DNA of 64,000 nt, taken from Deltaproteobacteria bacterium (lineage in GTDB: Bacteria > Desulfobacterota > Syntrophorhabdia > Syntrophorhabdales > Syntrophorhabdaceae). How positions within the stretch are numbered: position 1 is the first letter of the stretch; every line of letters starts with the position of its first letter. The notes beneath the pieces are model-generated. The model was not told where the DNA came from, did no database searches, and saw nothing but the letters and a program-made list of their open reading frames with translations. Made by a program: the position numbers and the translations under genes. Positions 2,856 through 44,289 of the stretch are shown one piece after another. The stretch spans positions 62,001-126,000 of the forward strand of contig JAKLET010000003.1 in assembly GCA_022711595.1 (NCBI GenBank), in the 5' to 3' direction.

Positions 2856-5800
2856 TTAAAATACCATTCTTGCCACTGCATTGACGCTATGGGCGATGTA
2901 GCTGCTCTCGCCTAACTGGGCATCGTAACCGATCTGGAATGACAGGCCGTTGTTCATGAACATTGATACGCCTGCACCGCAGAGAAGGAAATTCCTGTCG
3001 GGGGAGGGGGTTTCTATGCTGAACGGAGAGCTCCCTTGGGCCAGCCTCGAAATGATATTGCGGCTGTCCCTCAGGAACTCACGTCCATATGACGCGCGTA
3101 TACCCGGCATAATAACGCCCTTGCCGGTTTCCCATGTGTAATAAAGCTTTCCCCCGATGTTTCCCTGGAGGGACTCGGCTTTCTGCCTGTCCACGTTGAG
3201 GCTCAGCGCGCCCGCTCCTGATTCGGTGTAGCCGTCTATATCGAGCTTGATATACTGGAGCGAGAGCGTCGGTACTATCATCCACTTGTTTATGTTCAGT
3301 TCGTAACCCGTGCCTCCATAAAGGGTGAACTGGCGCCCTGTTGGACTGGAGGATGCGCTGCGGTCAAGACCGGGGAAGACTATGCGGCGGGTGTTCTTGT
3401 AGTCCGACCAGCCGTAGCCCGCCTGGCCGTCCACGAAAAATCCCTTTGTGTACCAGGTCCCGTATACGCCCAGCGTGTAGCCGTCCATCTTCACCTTGCT
3501 GCCGAAATCGTCAATGTCCGCCCGTGAGCCGGTGTACCCTAAAAGAAGACCGGCCGCCAGATTGTTTGTGAACCGATAATCAATGCCGACGGTCATCCCC
3601 GCGCTGGTGAAGCCGTATCCCACCTGATCGGAAGTGTCTCTCTGGTCGCCGGAGATGGCGTTGCCTTTCACGAAAATACCCCATTTCTCATCTTCGACCC
3701 CGGGAAGCATACCGGTAAGGTCAGAGCCTGTGCTGGCGATCAGCAGGGGTTTGTCTTTTCCGTCACGTATGAAGCCATTGTTCCGGAAGACGGCCCCGCC
3801 GGGGTTTGTCCCCCGGACACCGCGTCTTATGTCGCTCAATCGCTCGGAGATGTTGCCCGATTGAAATATGATGCCGCTGATACCCATGCTGAAGGCCGCT
3901 TCGCTTTCCTTCGGTGCTATCTGGTCATAGGCGTGGGCGACCTGGCCGTATGTGGGTATGGCGTCGATGGCGTCAAGGACCGTGTCGAGGTCACCCGTCG
4001 CCGACGGGGCAACGGAGTTGAGCATGGTGCCCACCGACCTCTGGTTGGCATTGAGGTATGCAATGAGGACCTGGTTCATGTAGTCGCGTTCCACCACCAG
4101 GTAAACCTGGTTTGCGACATCGTATTTTGGTTTAAAGACAACGGTTGGCATGATGTTGGTGAGCAGGCTTGTGAACTGTCCTGTCACACCTGTGGCGGCG
4201 GTCAGAAATGTCCCGAAGACGGTCCCGATGGCCGGGGTTGCACCGCCCAGCCATGAGGTCTGAAGGACACCGTTCAAGGATGCGCTTCCGGTGATCGCGA
4301 GAAGGTCATTGCTTGTCGGTGAGGCAACCTCTATGAGAAGTTTGCCTGCCGCTGCCTGGGTGTAACTGCCGGCCAGGGTGAGGGTGCCGATGGAATTGCC
4401 GGGGCTTACGGTGCCGCCTGTGTTGTAGAGGCCCCTTGATGCATGAATTGTACCTGTGCCGCCCACTGTTCCCGAATAAAGCCTGAACAGGTTGCCGAAC
4501 GACCCCGCAGCCTCGGTGAGCTGACCGTTGACTATGAGCGTGCCCCCGTCGACAATAACATTTCTGCTCACCTGGAAGGTCCTGCCCGCCGGGATCAGAT
4601 ATGTGGTGGCGGAATTCATAACGGTCAGGGACAGCGCGTTGATGTCGACGCCCTGTATCATGGTACCCGGTGTGAGCATGACCATCTCACCCATGAGGAA
4701 GGTCACGTTGTAGCCAAGCCATGTGCCGGTGTTTCCCGCGTCGATGTCAGCCACATTGAGCGTCCAGGTGCCCGTGCCATTCTCTCCCCAGAAGGCATTG
4801 GTGAGGAAGGTCCAGCTTTTGTTGGTGAAAGAGGTTGTGTCCTGCTGAGCAGGGTCAAGGTGTGATGTCGAGTAGAGTATCTTGCTGGCCATCGTCGAAG
4901 GTGAGGTGATGGTTGCAGTGAGATCGCCCGCCTTGGCGTGTGTCAATGTGAGCCCCACCTCGACGCCTTCAAGGTGCTGGTTCGCCTCTGCCGCGGTGAG
5001 GTTGAATGTCTGGCTAACACCGGCGGGGTCATCATCGGGGATCGCAAGGCTGAATGCCGCGCTCTTTGTCACCGAGGTCTGTTCGGTCACGTAGGCAACG
5101 TTATGGACCTTTTGAACGAAGGCGCCGGCGTTGATGTTTCCGAAACCGTAGTTGGGATTGAACCGGTTACCCGCCCCGTTTTTGCGCCAGCCGCCGAAGC
5201 TGCTGTCGGAGGTGTCGGACGCGTCTACGACCGTGCTGGTCTTGACGAGGGCGTGCTTGGCCATTCGTATCTCCATCTCCGGGTTGGCTTCTTTCCCCAG
5301 GGCCATGATGCCCGAGACAAGCGGGGTCGACGATGATGTGCCCCCGAAACCGCTGGCGTAGCTCGTATCCGGGAAGAGATCGTCCCTGTCGCCCGAAGTG
5401 TTTGTTGCCGAATAAGCGTTGTAGCCAAGGCCGGCCCCGGTGCGGTCCGTCGTCGTGATGCCGAACCCTGTGTAGTCGCTGCGGTTCGAAGGCGCCGTGA
5501 CGAAGATGCTCGAACCGAAGTTGCTGTAGTTGGTGTACTTGCCGTCGCTCCCCAGGGCAGCTACAGTGATTACGCTGGAATTGTCATGGTCGGCATCCCT
5601 GTTCGCGTCTTCTGTTTTTGTACCGCGTTCGTTCCCTGCGGCAAACACGTGTATGACACCGTTGGCGGCGGTGCGCTTCAAGGCGAGGGTCACGGCAGCG
5701 CTCTGGCCGGCGAAAGGCACTTCGCTGCTGTAACTGTGGTTCTTCACCTGGATCTCCGAAACTCCTTCTATTGTCCCTGTGGTCGGGTTGACGCCGCTCT

Positions 5801-38614: not shown

Positions 38615-38643
38615 ATTATAAAGAGTGCCTGCGCTGAAATCAA
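38615..38643 (-). promoter_or_regulatory. Promoter of the cyclase-fold-like gene
   Basis: On the minus strand TTGATT (38638-38643), 17-bp spacer, perfect TATAAT (38615-38620). The -35 overlaps the stop codon of the P-type ATPase gene, and the leader is only about a dozen nucleotides. Confidence 0.6.
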
Positions 38644-41270
38644 CCTCCTCTTTTTTCACGCCGTTCGGTTATACGATGGATCAGTTTTTCAGCCTCAACC
38701 GCAAAGAACACCAGCGATGAAATACCGATACACAGCAGGAGCTCGGCGATGCTCAGGGGCTGGGTCCTAAAAATGGCGTTCAATGGTACAATGTAAATAA
38801 CTGCAAGCTGCATGAGGATAGACAGTAAAACGGCGCCAAGGAGTGCCTTGTTCGAAAAAAGTCCTTGTTTGAAGAGGGATTTTCTGTCGGACCGGATCGC
38901 GAGGGCGTTGGCAAGCTGGGTAAAACAAAGCACTGTAAAGACCATCGTCTGCCATTCCCCGGTATTTGTTTTAATGGATACGTACTGAACGGCAAGGACA
39001 AGGAAGGCCATGAACGCGCCCGCCCAGACCGTCTGTATGCCAAGCCCGTGGGAAAAGATACTCTCTTTCGGATTTCTTGGAGGGCGGCGCATAACATCAT
39101 CCTCGGCAGGCTCCACTGAAAGGGCAAGGGCGGGCAGACTGTCGGTGACGAGGTTGATCCAGAGGATGTGTATCGGCAGAAGAGGAATAGGGAAACCAAG
39201 AAGCTGCGCGAAAAAGATGGTCATGATCTCGCCGGTGTTGGTTGTCAGGAGGTATCTGATGAACTTTCGAATGTTGTCGTATATCTTCCTTCCTTCCTTC
39301 ACCGCCTGGACGATCGTTGAAAAATTGTCATCCAGGAGTATCATGTGGGCGGCCTCCTTGGAAACATCCGTGCCGGTAATTCCCATGGCGACACCGATAT
39401 CGGAGCGTTTAAGGGCGGGGGCGTCGTTTACTCCGTCACCGGTCATGGCGACAAACTGGTGTCTTTCCTGGAGCGCCTTGACGATCTTCAGCTTTTGCTC
39501 GGGCGCGACCCTTGCGTATGCGCGGATATGCTCAACCTTTGTAGCAAATTCTTCATCGCTTAGCCCGGCCAGGGCCGCACCGGTTATGATACCGTCGTTT
39601 TCGCCGAGTATCCCGATCCGTTTTGCGATGGCCGAGGCTGTGACCGGATGGTCTCCGGTGATCATCACGGGTTTGATCCCGGCGCTCTTGCAGAGTGCGA
39701 CGGCTTCCCTTGCTTCATCCCGAGGCGGGTCCATCATTCCGACAAGGCCAAGGATGATGAGATCGTTCTCGACAACATCCACCCGGCACACGTCGGGCAT
39801 AAAGTCCCATTTCTTCATGGCTATGCAGAGGACGCGAAGGCCCCTGGCGGCCATCTCTTCGTTGGCCGCAAGCAGGTCCGGCCTTCGTATTTCCGCCGGT
39901 TTTCCATCTGACCATACCGAGGATGCCTTTTCAATGAGTATGTCGGGTGCCCCTTTTGTGAAGGACAGGTAGCTCCCGTCGCTTTGCCGGTGAATTGTGG
40001 TCATTGATTTGCGGTCGGAGTCGAAGGGCACCTCTCCTACCCTGGGGAATTCCGTCTCCAGTTTGCCCCTGTGGTATCCGTGCTCCATCGCGACACGGCA
40101 GAGGGCCACCTCCGTCGGATCGCCGATGAAGGCCCCTTCCGCGTTCTCCTGCGAATCGTTGTTAAGTGCGATGCCCGTCATGAAATAGGTGAGACCTCGC
40201 GCCGCCTTGTCGCCAGCCTTTATCAACCTGCCGTCTGTGTACAGTTCCTCAACGGTCATGCGGTTGTACGTTAGCGTGCCGGTCTTGTCGGAACATATGT
40301 AGGTCACCGAGCCCAGCGTTTCAACGGCGGGAAGCTTTCTTATTAAGGCGTTCTTTTTGACCATTTTCTTGGCGCCCAGGGCCAGCGAGATGGTGATCAC
40401 TGCGGGCAGCGCCTCGGGAATGGCTGCAACGGCAAGAGAGATGGAGGTGAGGAGCATGAGCAGGGGCTTCTCGCCTCTGAGCAGGCCTATGCCGAAAACG
40501 ATGGCGCAGATGAAAAGGATGGCAATGGCAAGGTTCTTGCCGAAGACGGTCAGCCTTTTCTGCAGGGGCGTTCTTACCTCCGCCTCGTCCTGCAGCATGG
40601 AGGCGATCTTGCCGAGCTCTGTTTGCATTCCCGTTGCGACAGCAATGCCCGATCCTCTGCCGTACGTTACGATTGTTCCTTTGTAGACCATATTGGTCCT
40701 GTCACCGATGGAGAGCCCCGGGTCGGACAGTTCACAGACCGCTTTCTCGACGGGGACCGATTCTCCGGTAAGCGCCGCCTCGTCTATCCTCAGCTGGGCG
40801 GATTCAATTATCCTCATATCCACAGGCACTATGGTTCCGGCTTCGAGTAGAACTATATCGCCGGGCACGATCACCTTCGAGTTGACGGAGTGCACGGACC
40901 CGTCCCGTATGACGTTTGCCATGGGAGCTGCCATCTGCTTCAATGCCTCAATTGCCCTCTCGGCGCGGTATTCCTGAATGAACCCGATCACTGCGTTGGC
41001 AATGACAATGGCAATGATGACAAGCGTATCGGTGAGTTCTCCGATGATGCCCGCCACAACTGCTGCCCCGATGAGGATAAGGATCATGAAATCCTTGAAC
41101 TGGTCAAGGAACATGAAAAAGGGTGTTTTTTTCTTTTTTGCCTTTAGTTCGTTCGGGCCGTACTTTGCGAGTCTTTTTTCCGCTTCCGCAGCGCTCAGGC
41201 CGTCTGCCGTTGTATCAAGGTGTTCATAGATCGACTCCATCCGCTGCTGGTGATAACATTGATCGTTCAT
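38640..41270 (-). CDS. P-type cation ATPase (PMR1/YoaB-like), probable Mn2+/Ca2+ exporter
   Basis: An 876-residue P2-type ATPase. Actuator loop TGES (168-171), ion-site helix PEALPA (285-290), phosphorylation Asp328 in DKTGTLT, MITGDHP and TGDGVNDAPALKRSDIGVAMG are all present, with about ten TM helices and the N-terminal cation-ATPase domain (LDTTADGLSAAEAEKRLAKYGPN). By sequence it would be annotated as a Ca2+ ATPase. Two yybP-ykoY (Mn2+-sensing) riboswitches lie directly upstream, and such riboswitches control Mn2+ efflux genes including YoaB-type ATPases, so manganese export is the better guess. The ribosome site (AAAGGAGAAAACG) lies at the end of the proximal riboswitch. Confidence 0.93.
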   Translation of the reverse strand: MNDQCYHQQRMESIYEHLDTTADGLSAAEAEKRLAKYGPNELKAKKKKTPFFMFLDQFKDFMILILIGAAVVAGIIGELTDTLVIIAIVIANAVIGFIQEYRAERAIEALKQMAAPMANVIRDGSVHSVNSKVIVPGDIVLLEAGTIVPVDMRIIESAQLRIDEAALTGESVPVEKAVCELSDPGLSIGDRTNMVYKGTIVTYGRGSGIAVATGMQTELGKIASMLQDEAEVRTPLQKRLTVFGKNLAIAILFICAIVFGIGLLRGEKPLLMLLTSISLAVAAIPEALPAVITISLALGAKKMVKKNALIRKLPAVETLGSVTYICSDKTGTLTYNRMTVEELYTDGRLIKAGDKAARGLTYFMTGIALNNDSQENAEGAFIGDPTEVALCRVAMEHGYHRGKLETEFPRVGEVPFDSDRKSMTTIHRQSDGSYLSFTKGAPDILIEKASSVWSDGKPAEIRRPDLLAANEEMAARGLRVLCIAMKKWDFMPDVCRVDVVENDLIILGLVGMMDPPRDEAREAVALCKSAGIKPVMITGDHPVTASAIAKRIGILGENDGIITGAALAGLSDEEFATKVEHIRAYARVAPEQKLKIVKALQERHQFVAMTGDGVNDAPALKRSDIGVAMGITGTDVSKEAAHMILLDDNFSTIVQAVKEGRKIYDNIRKFIRYLLTTNTGEIMTIFFAQLLGFPIPLLPIHILWINLVTDSLPALALSVEPAEDDVMRRPPRNPKESIFSHGLGIQTVWAGAFMAFLVLAVQYVSIKTNTGEWQTMVFTVLCFTQLANALAIRSDRKSLFKQGLFSNKALLGAVLLSILMQLAVIYIVPLNAIFRTQPLSIAELLLCIGISSLVFFAVEAEKLIHRITERREKRGG

Positions 41271-41334
41271 CGTTTTCTCCTTTCCGGTGATGCAGCGAGC
41301 CGGCGCCTCAAAGGCTTACCGGATCGTGGTCCTG

Positions 41335-41430
41335 GTAAAGGTCTCGCTCGTTAGCATATCTAACCGGCATACCGGTCGGTGTGACGCCGACGTATTGACG
41401 ATGGTGCCGATAAAAGCTACTCCCCTTTAT
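41335..41430 (-). promoter_or_regulatory. yybP-ykoY (Mn2+) riboswitch, proximal copy
   Basis: On the minus strand the hallmark AAAGGGGAGTAGC (41416-41428) opens the element and GCGAGACCTTT (41337-41347) closes it, with the closing AAAGG/CCTTT stem, a CGTCAATACG segment and GC-rich arms between. The downstream CCGGT can pair with ACCGG next to the ATPase ribosome site, so control at translation is plausible. Confidence 0.85.
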
Positions 41431-41515
41431 ACTGGCCAACTCACACTTATATTATTCCATTTCCAAAGGAACTGCAAAACCTTGAGTTTGGTTCCAGTTC
41501 TTTTCCCTGAAGACC

Positions 41516-41548
41516 ATAATAAAAAAGCGAAACGCTTCGGCATCATGC
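41516..41548 (-). terminator. Intrinsic terminator after the distal riboswitch
   Basis: Directly after the distal riboswitch on the minus strand: GGCATGATGCC, then AAGCG-TTT-CGCTT (41525-41537) and a T-rich tract (41518-41524). The position fits the expression platform of a transcription-controlling riboswitch. Confidence 0.7.
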
Positions 41549-41549
41549 C

Positions 41550-41690
41550 AAAGGTCTCGCTTATCGGCATCTTCAGTCCCGGGCCGATGCTTGTTCTCTT
41601 TGGGGGCCCGGGTCAGTCGCCAACGATAAGGCCAGGAGTTACACTCCGAACTGTTGACCCTATCTTTATCAGCTACTCCCCTTCAGGGTT
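41550..41690 (-). promoter_or_regulatory. yybP-ykoY (Mn2+) riboswitch, distal copy
   Basis: On the minus strand GAAGGGGAGTAGCT (41671-41684) opens and GCGAGACCTTT (41550-41560) closes the element; a GGTCAACA segment and long GC arms with a GGCCCGGG/CCCGGGCC pairing lie between. It starts right after a TATAAT promoter and ends in a terminator. Confidence 0.85.
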
Positions 41691-41696
41691 GTCGTT

Positions 41697-41725
41697 ATTA
41701 TAAATCAAGAGCAGTAAAAATTCAA
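41697..41725 (-). promoter_or_regulatory. Promoter of the double-riboswitch leader
   Basis: On the minus strand TTGAAT (41720-41725), 17-bp spacer, perfect TATAAT (41697-41702). The -35 overlaps the stop codon of the upstream sensor kinase gene. Confidence 0.7.
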
Positions 41726-44289
41726 CCCGGTGGGTTGGAAAGAACCATATCGATGACCTTCCGGAGTTGTTCCAGAGAATACGGCTTCGCCACAACGCCG
41801 GAAAACCCAAATCTTTTGTAATCATCAACAATGGGATCATTGACATAACCGCTTGAAACGACAGCTTTTATATTGGGGTTGATAGCGAGGAGGTTCTGCA
41901 TCGCCTCGCGGCCTCCCATACCGCCCGGCACGGTGAGATCGAGTATGACAAGATCGAATGCGCCTCCCGAAGAGAACTCTTTTTTAAAGAGCGCGATAGC
42001 TTCGGCGCCGTCGCGTGCAAACTCCACCTCATACCCTATGTGTTTGAGGATCTGTCCGGCCATGTCCCGGACCTGTTCCTCGTCATCCATATAAAGGATC
42101 TTTTTTCTTTTTTTGGTATATACAGGGGCCTGATTGGGCTCTATGTCCTCCAGCAGGACCCGTGCCGGAAGATAGACGTAAACTGTCGTACCAATACCTT
42201 TTTTGGATTTGACAGTTATATATCCGTGATGGTTCTTGACTATGGAGTAGCAGATCGCCAGGCCCAGGCCCATGCCCTTTTCGCTCCCCATTTCCTTGGT
42301 GGTAAAATAGGGGTCGAAGATGCGTTCGAGTGATTTCTCATCGATACCGGTACCCGTGTCTTCAACGGATATACAGATGTAATTGCCGGGAGGCAGAGGT
42401 ATCCCGTTCGGACGCGCAAGATCGATGTTCTCCGCCCGTATGGTAATGTTTCCCCCCTCGGGCATGGCTTCCCGTGCATTCATGACAAGATTATGGATGA
42501 CCTGCCGTACCTGTCCTTCATCGACTTCGGCCTTGTAAAGATCGTCGGGGATTTCGAAGACACATCGCGTTGTTGAGCCGGCCAGGGTGATATCCACTGC
42601 GTCATAGATAAGTTCATCGAGAACAGTGAGTTTCTTGACCGGTGTGCCTCCCCTGGCAAATGTGAGCAGTTTATATGAAAGGTCTTTGCCCCTGACGGTA
42701 GCCCTCTCTGCTTCGTCAAGTCTTTTCATGGCTTTTTCGTCGGCATTGAGGAGCATTTTCGCGAAGGATATATTGCCGAGGATGACAGCGAGAAGGTTGT
42801 TAAAGTCATGGGCGATGCCGCCCGCAAGAGTGCCGATGGATTCGAGCTTGCGTATCTTCAGGAGTTCATCCTCCATCCTGCGCTGTTCAGTGATATCGCG
42901 GAACACGATGACGACACCTATGAGAGTGGCGTCTTCGCTTCGGATCGGCGAAGCGCTTCTCGATATGAAATGCTCCGTCCCGTAACGGCTTACGAGCGTG
43001 CCCGATATGGAAAGCGAGAGGGCCTGTCCGGTTTCGAGGATAGTCCGGACAGGGTCATTGCCAGCGGCTGTTTCCTGGTCTTTCATCGTGAAAATATCGC
43101 CCAGGGGTTTACCGCGAGCCTCTTCCTGTGAGAATCCGGTGAGCTGTTCGGCCGCCTTGTTGATAAGGATGACCCTGCCGTTCGTATCAATCGTAATGAC
43201 ACCGTCACCGATTGACCTGAGTGTTACCGCAAGCCGCTCCTTTTCCGTGGCGAGGGCTTTTTCCGCCAGAGATCGTATGGCGATCTCGTTTCTTAAGTCC
43301 CCATTGGCCTCGACAAGCCTCTTTTCGCTCTCTTGGAGCAGTTCTTTTGAAACCGTGGTTTCTTTCAGACGGCCCACCATGCTGTTGAAATCTTCCATCA
43401 GTTTTCTGATCTCTCCTGACAGCACCGGTTTCACGGATACATTGAAATCGCCGTCATTGATCTTTTTTGTTGCATCACTTAAACGTGAGATCCCGCGCGA
43501 AAAGTACATGCCGATGGCAAGGGCGATAAAGGAGACCAGGAGGATGCCCATTCCCATAAAGATGAAACCTCTGTCGCGAAAAGAACCGAAAAGGCTCCCG
43601 GCAGTGCCGGTCAGGTTCGTGGCAGTTCTTTTCTGGATAGCCTTTGCTTCGCGGGTGGGACTGGTAAATTCATCAAGGTGGGCAGTGACAAAAACGCTCA
43701 GACGTACCCCGTCGGAGGTCGACTGCGAAAGGGGCACGATGTACATATATTTTTTAGAAACCGTCCCGTTTTCTTCGATCCAATCAAAATAACCACCCGC
43801 AGGTTTGCCGCTTCGGTTTGTCTTGATGATCTCCCAGTATGCAGGGAGAGATTGTTCATATTTTTCTGTACCGGTATTCTCCAGCTTGCGCTCTTTATGG
43901 AAACGTATGACTCCTGTTTTTGTTTCCTGCAGGCCGGTGTACCCCGTTTTGCCTATGCGCTGGACAGCCAGGTTGCGGAATTTTTTATCACGGCGAAGAT
44001 CGTTCAGGGTCATGTAGGAATGTGACTGGAGCGTGAGGTCGAGCTGTGCGGCTATATCATATGCCTTCTGGCGTATCGATGTTTCGCTTATCCTTGTGAG
44101 GAGCGTGGAACTTCTGGCCCAGCCATCCTCATATCCTTCCTGTATGGCCTGCTGTACCTCGTCCTGAAATTTGGTTCCGTATGTTTCGATGAGAATGCTG
44201 AAGATCGCGATGGGAATGAGCCCAGCAATGAGCGTCATGATAAAGAGGCGTGACCCAAAACTTTTCGGGAAAATGCCAGGCAGCTTCAT
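41722..44289 (-). CDS. Membrane hybrid sensor histidine kinase with PAS and receiver domains
   Basis: An 855-residue signalling protein. Order: TM (about 15-35), a periplasmic Cache-like sensing domain (about 40-235), TM (about 242-262), HAMP (about 263-315), a coiled linker, a PAS domain (about 352-470, VTLRSIGDGVITIDTNGRVILINKAAEQLTGFS), HisKA with His494 in GGIAHDFNNLLAVILGN, an ATPase domain with DTGTGI and GMGLGLAICYSIVKNH, and a C-terminal receiver (about 735-855, MDDEEQVRDMAG, DLVILDLTVPGG, VVAKPYSLEQL). This is a typical orphan hybrid kinase; the signal and output partner are unknown. It ends just before the riboswitch promoter. Confidence 0.92.
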   Translation of the reverse strand: MKLPGIFPKSFGSRLFIMTLIAGLIPIAIFSILIETYGTKFQDEVQQAIQEGYEDGWARSSTLLTRISETSIRQKAYDIAAQLDLTLQSHSYMTLNDLRRDKKFRNLAVQRIGKTGYTGLQETKTGVIRFHKERKLENTGTEKYEQSLPAYWEIIKTNRSGKPAGGYFDWIEENGTVSKKYMYIVPLSQSTSDGVRLSVFVTAHLDEFTSPTREAKAIQKRTATNLTGTAGSLFGSFRDRGFIFMGMGILLVSFIALAIGMYFSRGISRLSDATKKINDGDFNVSVKPVLSGEIRKLMEDFNSMVGRLKETTVSKELLQESEKRLVEANGDLRNEIAIRSLAEKALATEKERLAVTLRSIGDGVITIDTNGRVILINKAAEQLTGFSQEEARGKPLGDIFTMKDQETAAGNDPVRTILETGQALSLSISGTLVSRYGTEHFISRSASPIRSEDATLIGVVIVFRDITEQRRMEDELLKIRKLESIGTLAGGIAHDFNNLLAVILGNISFAKMLLNADEKAMKRLDEAERATVRGKDLSYKLLTFARGGTPVKKLTVLDELIYDAVDITLAGSTTRCVFEIPDDLYKAEVDEGQVRQVIHNLVMNAREAMPEGGNITIRAENIDLARPNGIPLPPGNYICISVEDTGTGIDEKSLERIFDPYFTTKEMGSEKGMGLGLAICYSIVKNHHGYITVKSKKGIGTTVYVYLPARVLLEDIEPNQAPVYTKKRKKILYMDDEEQVRDMAGQILKHIGYEVEFARDGAEAIALFKKEFSSGGAFDLVILDLTVPGGMGGREAMQNLLAINPNIKAVVSSGYVNDPIVDDYKRFGFSGVVAKPYSLEQLRKVIDMVLSNPPG

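Follow-up and report, generated by a model that had tools for sequence, protein, structure and literature searches.

Two yybP-ykoY (Mn2+-class) aptamers of different subtypes in tandem before a P-type ATPase gene of a probable Syntrophorhabdus

Two aptamers in one leader

The leader of a P-type ATPase gene on the minus strand of the window (the whole 64-kb stretch of DNA analysed here) contains two complete aptamers of the yybP-ykoY (Mn2+) class, one after the other, with no gene between them. The reading that we favor, at a probability of roughly three in four, is that they are two Mn2+ riboswitches which differ both in subtype and in expression platform, that each has a promoter of its own, and that they control the ATPase gene in steps. 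The window genome appears to belong to the genus Syntrophorhabdus, and the tandem, in a riboswitch class that was thought to have none, is conserved in, and restricted to, this one genus.

The L1 hallmark GGGGAGTAGC is present at exactly two sites in the 64 kb (41681-41672 and 41425-41416) and the L3 hallmark GCGAGACCTTT also at exactly two (41560-41550 and 41347-41337), all on the minus strand, where 0.09 and 0.04 sites, respectively, are expected. The first-pass annotation had reported two hallmark pairs on this strand between a TATAAT promoter and the ATPase start; the pairs prove to be unique in the window and to lie in the order that it gave. The distal aptamer, copy A (bp 41545–41687, minus strand), is recognized by the R2 covariance model described below, by the Rfam model RF00080 at a loose threshold and by covariation; it is of the mntP-like, UPF0016-associated subtype with an extended P3 insert, and its loops are L1 GGGGAGUAGC (41681-41672) and L3 plus the P1 3′ strand, GCGAGACCUUU (41560-41550). 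The proximal aptamer, copy B (bp 41332–41431, minus strand), is recognized by the R1 and R2 models and by covariation and is of an alx-like subtype, with L1 at 41425-41416 and L3 at 41347-41337. L1 GGGGAGUAGC and L3 GAGACC are exact in both copies, and both have AAGG/CCUU pairs in helix P1. There is no minus-strand open reading frame of at least 80 aa between 41270 and 41722. By virtue of class membership, Mn2+ is the presumed ligand of both copies.

With only about 49% identity and different subtypes, the two copies are not the product of a recent duplication. Copy A is nearer to the UPF0016-associated subtype (about 0.60 identity) than to copy B (0.49), and it groups with that subtype, which rules out its origin as a local duplicate of copy B. 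The P3 insert of copy A (window 41572-41620) contains an 8-bp CCCGGGCC/GGCCCGGG stem that is absent from all aligned relatives.

The downstream gene (bp 38,640–41,270, minus strand) encodes a P2A-type (Ca2+/Mn2+) P-type ATPase of 876 aa that starts at 41270, preceded by AAAGGAG. Its best NCBIfam match is the PMR1-type family TIGR01522, at 761.8 bits and hence just below the cut-off of 798.3, and its best solved relatives are Listeria LMCA1 (lmo0841) and human SPCA1/ATP2C1; its substrate is presumably Mn2+/Ca2+.

Covariance models and the Rfam score

Two covariance models were built from relatives: R1 from 12 B-type sequences, window copy B included, and R2 from 28 sequences that include window copy B and leave out window copy A. 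R2 matches the window in two places only, copy B with 87.8 bits and copy A with 50.2 bits (E=1.6e-10 for A), and R1 gives copy B, a member of its training set, 113.3 bits. When run on E. coli K-12 sequence (about 23 kb), R2 matches the mntP and alx leaders and nothing else, and R1 alone finds alx with 48.1 bits (E 3e-10) and mntP with 19.6; the top matches of both models in this sequence are thus validated leaders of the class. R1 alone gives the copies A of the ATPase leaders 30-39 bits. When the tandem copies A are ranked by R2, that of the window is the lowest.

The Rfam model behaves differently. RF00080 in Rfam 15 has 177 positions and a gathering score of 45 bits, which is an annotation threshold and not a defining feature of the class, and at that score it has no match in the window; at a loose threshold it finds copy A with 20.6 bits (E 0.0013) and does not match copy B. 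In a test of the same release on the E. coli leaders (L092 and L093), mntP receives 41.6 bits, again below the cut-off, and alx is left unmatched, although both leaders are reported as Mn-sensing riboswitches (PMC9603457); in only two of 14 control genomes is the cut-off exceeded at all. Since it rejects the validated mntP leader and misses alx, the Rfam score is uninformative at this locus, and we dropped it as an arbiter of membership. The expectation of the first-pass annotation that the Rfam model would hit both copies therefore did not hold, whereas a covariance search does find both when the model (R2) is drawn from relatives; the annotation's view that a single copy above threshold would count against the tandem is not applicable to a model that itself passes over mntP and alx. 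It follows from these scores that a large part of the Mn2+ riboswitch class, validated and new members alike, will escape annotation by gathering score, and this threshold may partly explain why tandems of the class went unseen.

Covariation supports the folds of both subtypes. In the B-type alignment 94.4% of cells are paired and six pairs have two-sided changes, a result reached by none of 500 shuffles; in the A-type alignment 90.4% of cells are paired, with nine two-sided pairs (39 cells). Sliding the pairing partners abolishes the signal in both alignments. P2 with its conserved UCAA bulge and the P3 hairpin are present, with covariation support, in both subtypes.

Predicted promoters and expression platforms

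Upstream of copy A lies a promoter-like site, promoter P1 (TTGAAT-17-TATAAT, bp 41697–41725, minus strand), which overlaps the end of a hybrid histidine kinase gene (bp 41722–44289, minus strand; identified by domains and synteny); the leaders of relatives are laid out in the same way. Copy A is followed by a predicted intrinsic terminator with a T run (bp 41521–41563, minus strand; -23.4 kcal/mol), the terminator-like hairpins being placed at 41553-41524. Its 5′ arm contains GCGAGACC and the P1 3′ strand of the aptamer, so that terminator formation excludes closure of the aptamer. When folded alone, copy A takes the expected P1-P2-P3 form; when downstream sequence is added, the minimum free energy (MFE) structure trades helix P1 for a terminator stem that starts in L3 and the P1 3′ strand in each of the six copy-A genomes, and the terminator displaces helix P1 in the full-leader fold of the window, too. 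The first platform is thus predicted to stop transcription, and the intrinsic terminator that had been noted after the distal copy is seen as predicted hairpins with a T run in an arrangement kept in 6/6 copy-A genomes. The same overlapping design recurs where an A-type switch stands singly before a UPF0016 gene, as it also does once in the window genome.

A second promoter, P2 (TTTGCA-18-TAATAT, bp 41449–41478, minus strand), which the first-pass annotation had missed, is placed by consensus and conservation between the copy A terminator and copy B. The pattern TTTRCA-18-TAnTAT is common to the window, G001, G010 and G011 and to G004 and G008, which carry only copy B; it is weaker in G006 and is lost in G002, where copy B has decayed. 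Consensus and conservation suggest that both promoters are used. Because P2 is conserved between the copies, only transcripts from promoter P1 meet both switches. The first-pass annotation had proposed one transcript controlled at termination and again at translation; both platforms are indeed predicted, but the serial control would apply to P1 transcripts only, and the logic of the locus is likely to be B x (P2 + P1 x A) and not a simple one-transcript series. A sharpened two-step response would then be possible only in the P1 branch.

No intrinsic terminator or U run was found after copy B in the window. Instead, the P1 3′ strand of copy B, CCUUUACC (bp 41334–41341, minus strand), can serve as an anti-Shine-Dalgarno arm, as judged from the MFE fold of the platform, and its partner in the predicted OFF state is the ribosome-binding site GGAAAGGAG (bp 41277–41285, minus strand; assigned by position and folding). 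In general form, the P1 3′ strand CCUUUnCC is complementary to the ribosome-site GGAAAGG, with a variable inner hairpin between them. The MFE structure of the platform alone pairs these two elements in 9/9 genus genomes examined and in L042, a family member outside the genus that also has the CCUUU-SD helix; the helix of L040 is in a slightly different register. When helix P1 is forced, the mean unpaired probability of the SD rises from 0.64 to 0.86 in the window, from 0.37 to 0.77 in L034, from 0.31 to 0.80 in L035, from 0.38 to 0.81 in L036 and from 0.63 to 0.85 in one further tandem genome. In window copy B and in L033 the free full-leader MFE structure is without the anti-SD helix (probability about 0.16), which appears once the aptamer 5′ strand is left out and only the platform is folded. 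Over 10 species 92.9% of the cells of this helix are paired, with no covariation or compensatory changes; covariation cannot confirm it because its bases hardly vary. The earlier statement that the proximal copy leads into the ribosome site agrees with this conserved predicted helix, which has no covariation and, in the window, has a low probability when the full leader folds freely. In the outgroups L041, L043 and L044, the B-type switch stands alone and is followed by a terminator of the ordinary kind.

These predicted, mutually exclusive folds suggest the following scheme. Transcripts from promoter P1 would reach copy A first. At low Mn2+, the terminator that takes up the GAGACC loop and the P1 3′ strand of copy A would form and transcription would stop; with Mn2+ present, docked copy A would hold helix P1 closed and the polymerase would read through. 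Every transcript that reaches the gene, whether from P1 or P2, would carry copy B, whose CCUUU would pair at low Mn2+ with the ribosome-site AAAGG and, with Mn2+ present, with the AAAGG at the copy B 5′ end, which would free the ribosome site. Excess Mn2+ would in this way raise both the mRNA level and the translation of a presumed Mn2+/Ca2+ exporter, presumably with a steeper response in the part that comes from promoter P1. The ON direction of both switches is deduced from the modeled folds; it agrees with the antitermination known for the class in B. subtilis (PMC11647493) and the release of the ribosome-binding site known for it in E. coli (PMC9294342).

The difference in subtype, with only about 49% identity between A and B, could also mean that the pair is a two-input gate in which the copies sense different cues or ranges, for example Mn2+ by copy A and Mn2+ plus pH or another metal by copy B. 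Copy B is similar to the alx leader of E. coli, whose known responses include one to alkaline pH in addition to that to Mn2+ (compare PMC9603457). On the other hand, the metal site of class members with solved structures is formed by L1 and L3, and these two loops are identical in both copies; we regard such a gate as rather improbable.

Distribution and history in the genus

Both copies are intact in five genomes (species) of the genus, copy B alone is present in three, and one has copy A with a decayed copy B; the ATPases of the other four tandem species are 77-79% identical to that of the window. Since three members of the genus have no copy A and one has a broken copy B, the pair is not essential. 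The gene order in the tandem genomes is SDR, 112-aa ORF, hybrid kinase, promoter P1, copy A, promoter P2, copy B, ATPase; in G004 and G008 the segment from the kinase through copy A is missing, and the order is SDR, 112-aa ORF, P2, B, ATPase. In G009 the 112-aa ORF precedes copy B and a contig start hides the rest, and the G005 locus is interrupted by a contig end. The outgroup ATPases have copy B only. In a midpoint-rooted ATPase tree, the window genome (G000) branches off first in the genus clade, and the B-only genomes lie nested inside that clade. The simplest history suggested by this distribution is that the kinase and copy A were gained on the genus stem and that both were lost in the branch of G004, G008 and G009. 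The kinase is present at the ATPase locus only in the copy-A genomes and in G003 (L125) and is absent in the B-only relatives; G003 has retained the kinase gene and, after it, a P1-like TATAAT site, next to an ATPase of a different lineage and with no riboswitch. R2 found no aptamer remnant above noise in G003 or G007.

In G002 the proximal aptamer (L037 in G002:C239, about 2132-2230) has decayed, with L1 GGGGGACAGC and L3 GCGCAATC, and the -10 element of promoter P2 has decayed as well; copy A, promoter P1 and the terminator are intact and the ATPase reading frame is open. Here the simplest history would be that copy B decayed together with P2. In G002 it thus seems to be copy A that controls the ATPase, and this bears on an alternative in which the locus consists of two near-independent units, P2 with copy B as the working ancestral control and P1 with copy A as an attenuated leader that adds little. 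The presence of P2 and B without A in G004 and G008, the B-only switches before the outgroup ATPases and the strength of the copy A terminator all fit such an arrangement. However, L1, L3, helix P1 and the terminator of copy A are fully conserved in six genomes in which the spacers have diverged, which together with the state of G002 makes it unlikely that copy A contributes so little.

That copy B can decay in the genus also raises the question of whether one copy in the window genome is itself a decaying remnant and only the other works, and the unusual P3 insert and the low R2 rank of window copy A could be taken to point the same way. Yet neither window copy has lost any core motif, any of the P1-P3 pairs or its platform, and the insert itself forms the CCCGGGCC/GGCCCGGG stem; we consider decay of either copy there very unlikely. 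Under the favored reading of stepwise control by two working riboswitches, the natural B-only state and the natural A-only state (with decayed B) make the added value of a second metal-ion switch directly testable.

Rarity of the arrangement and comparison with known systems

A 2022 review of tandem riboswitches (PMC9481103) places the class with those that have no tandems and, in view of its more than 5,000 members, speaks of a "surprising lack of tandem Mn2+ riboswitches". The first-pass annotation had called double arrangements of this class seldom noted; they are indeed rare, but the wording understates the case, as this systematic survey reports none. No later report of a Mn2+ riboswitch tandem was found in the non-preprint literature outside most subscription journals. 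The genus therefore supplies counter-examples to the reported lack, and the locus is probably the first documented tandem of the Mn2+ class, an ON/ON pair of two subtypes, termination before translation, with a promoter before each copy and confined to one genus.

In 99 relatives, a pattern search turned up numerous single copies together with several pairs. No further tandem was found in the family (39 genomes) or class (46 genomes), nor in a 395-genome sample of the phylum, of which 44 genomes have a match. A global search of 84,980 species genomes for a pair of exact L1 motifs, spaced by about 186-246 bases, returned 45 loci at that spacing; just four of these are real aptamer pairs, all in the Syntrophorhabdus group and all from genomes already among those compared above: MVQP01000137 and MVQQ01000234 (Syntrophorhabdus sp.), DBQU01000110 and DIFE01000137. 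The remaining loci were ruled out as tandems, being without L3 or consisting of other repeats. An array in Neolewinella maritima (L047, about 4081-4700) was likewise rejected; its repeats of about 115 bp contain GGGGAGTAGC...GCGAGACC without the P2 UCAA bulge and are probably a coincidence.

Each copy resembles the known members of RF00080 (E. coli mntP and alx, B. subtilis yybP and ykoY, L. lactis yoaB) in L1 GGGGAGUAGC and L3 GAGACC, in the P1-P2-P3 architecture with a UCAA bulge in P2, in the metal-export gene downstream and in ON switching, here predicted, through antitermination or ribosome-site release. Unlike the cases of the class described in the literature consulted, which are single copies, this leader combines an mntP-like and an alx-like subtype. 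Pairs of riboswitches that combine two mechanisms were defined in the tandem review cited above, and the nearest parallels are SAM-II/SAM-V and mixed-platform SAM-II doublets (PMC9481103), in which, as predicted here, the terminator comes first and the ribosome site second for the same ligand class. In SAM-II/SAM-V the ligand turns expression off, whereas both platforms here are predicted to turn it on, and the Syntrophorhabdus pair differs further in its presumed metal-ion ligand and in the conserved promoter between the copies. The L. lactis yoaB and S. pneumoniae mgtA leaders similarly place a Mn2+ riboswitch before a P2A ATPase. Theirs is a single switch, like the B-only outgroup leaders L041, L043 and L044 with their terminators; in Syntrophorhabdus, by contrast, the copy B platform is predicted to act on the ribosome site, and an upstream copy A with its own terminator has been added.

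The window genome carries a third Mn2+ riboswitch, of A type and with a terminator (G000:C33:15392-15487; L004 1495-1590). It precedes a UPF0016-like gene, a putative Mn2+ exporter, and is conserved in the genus and family.
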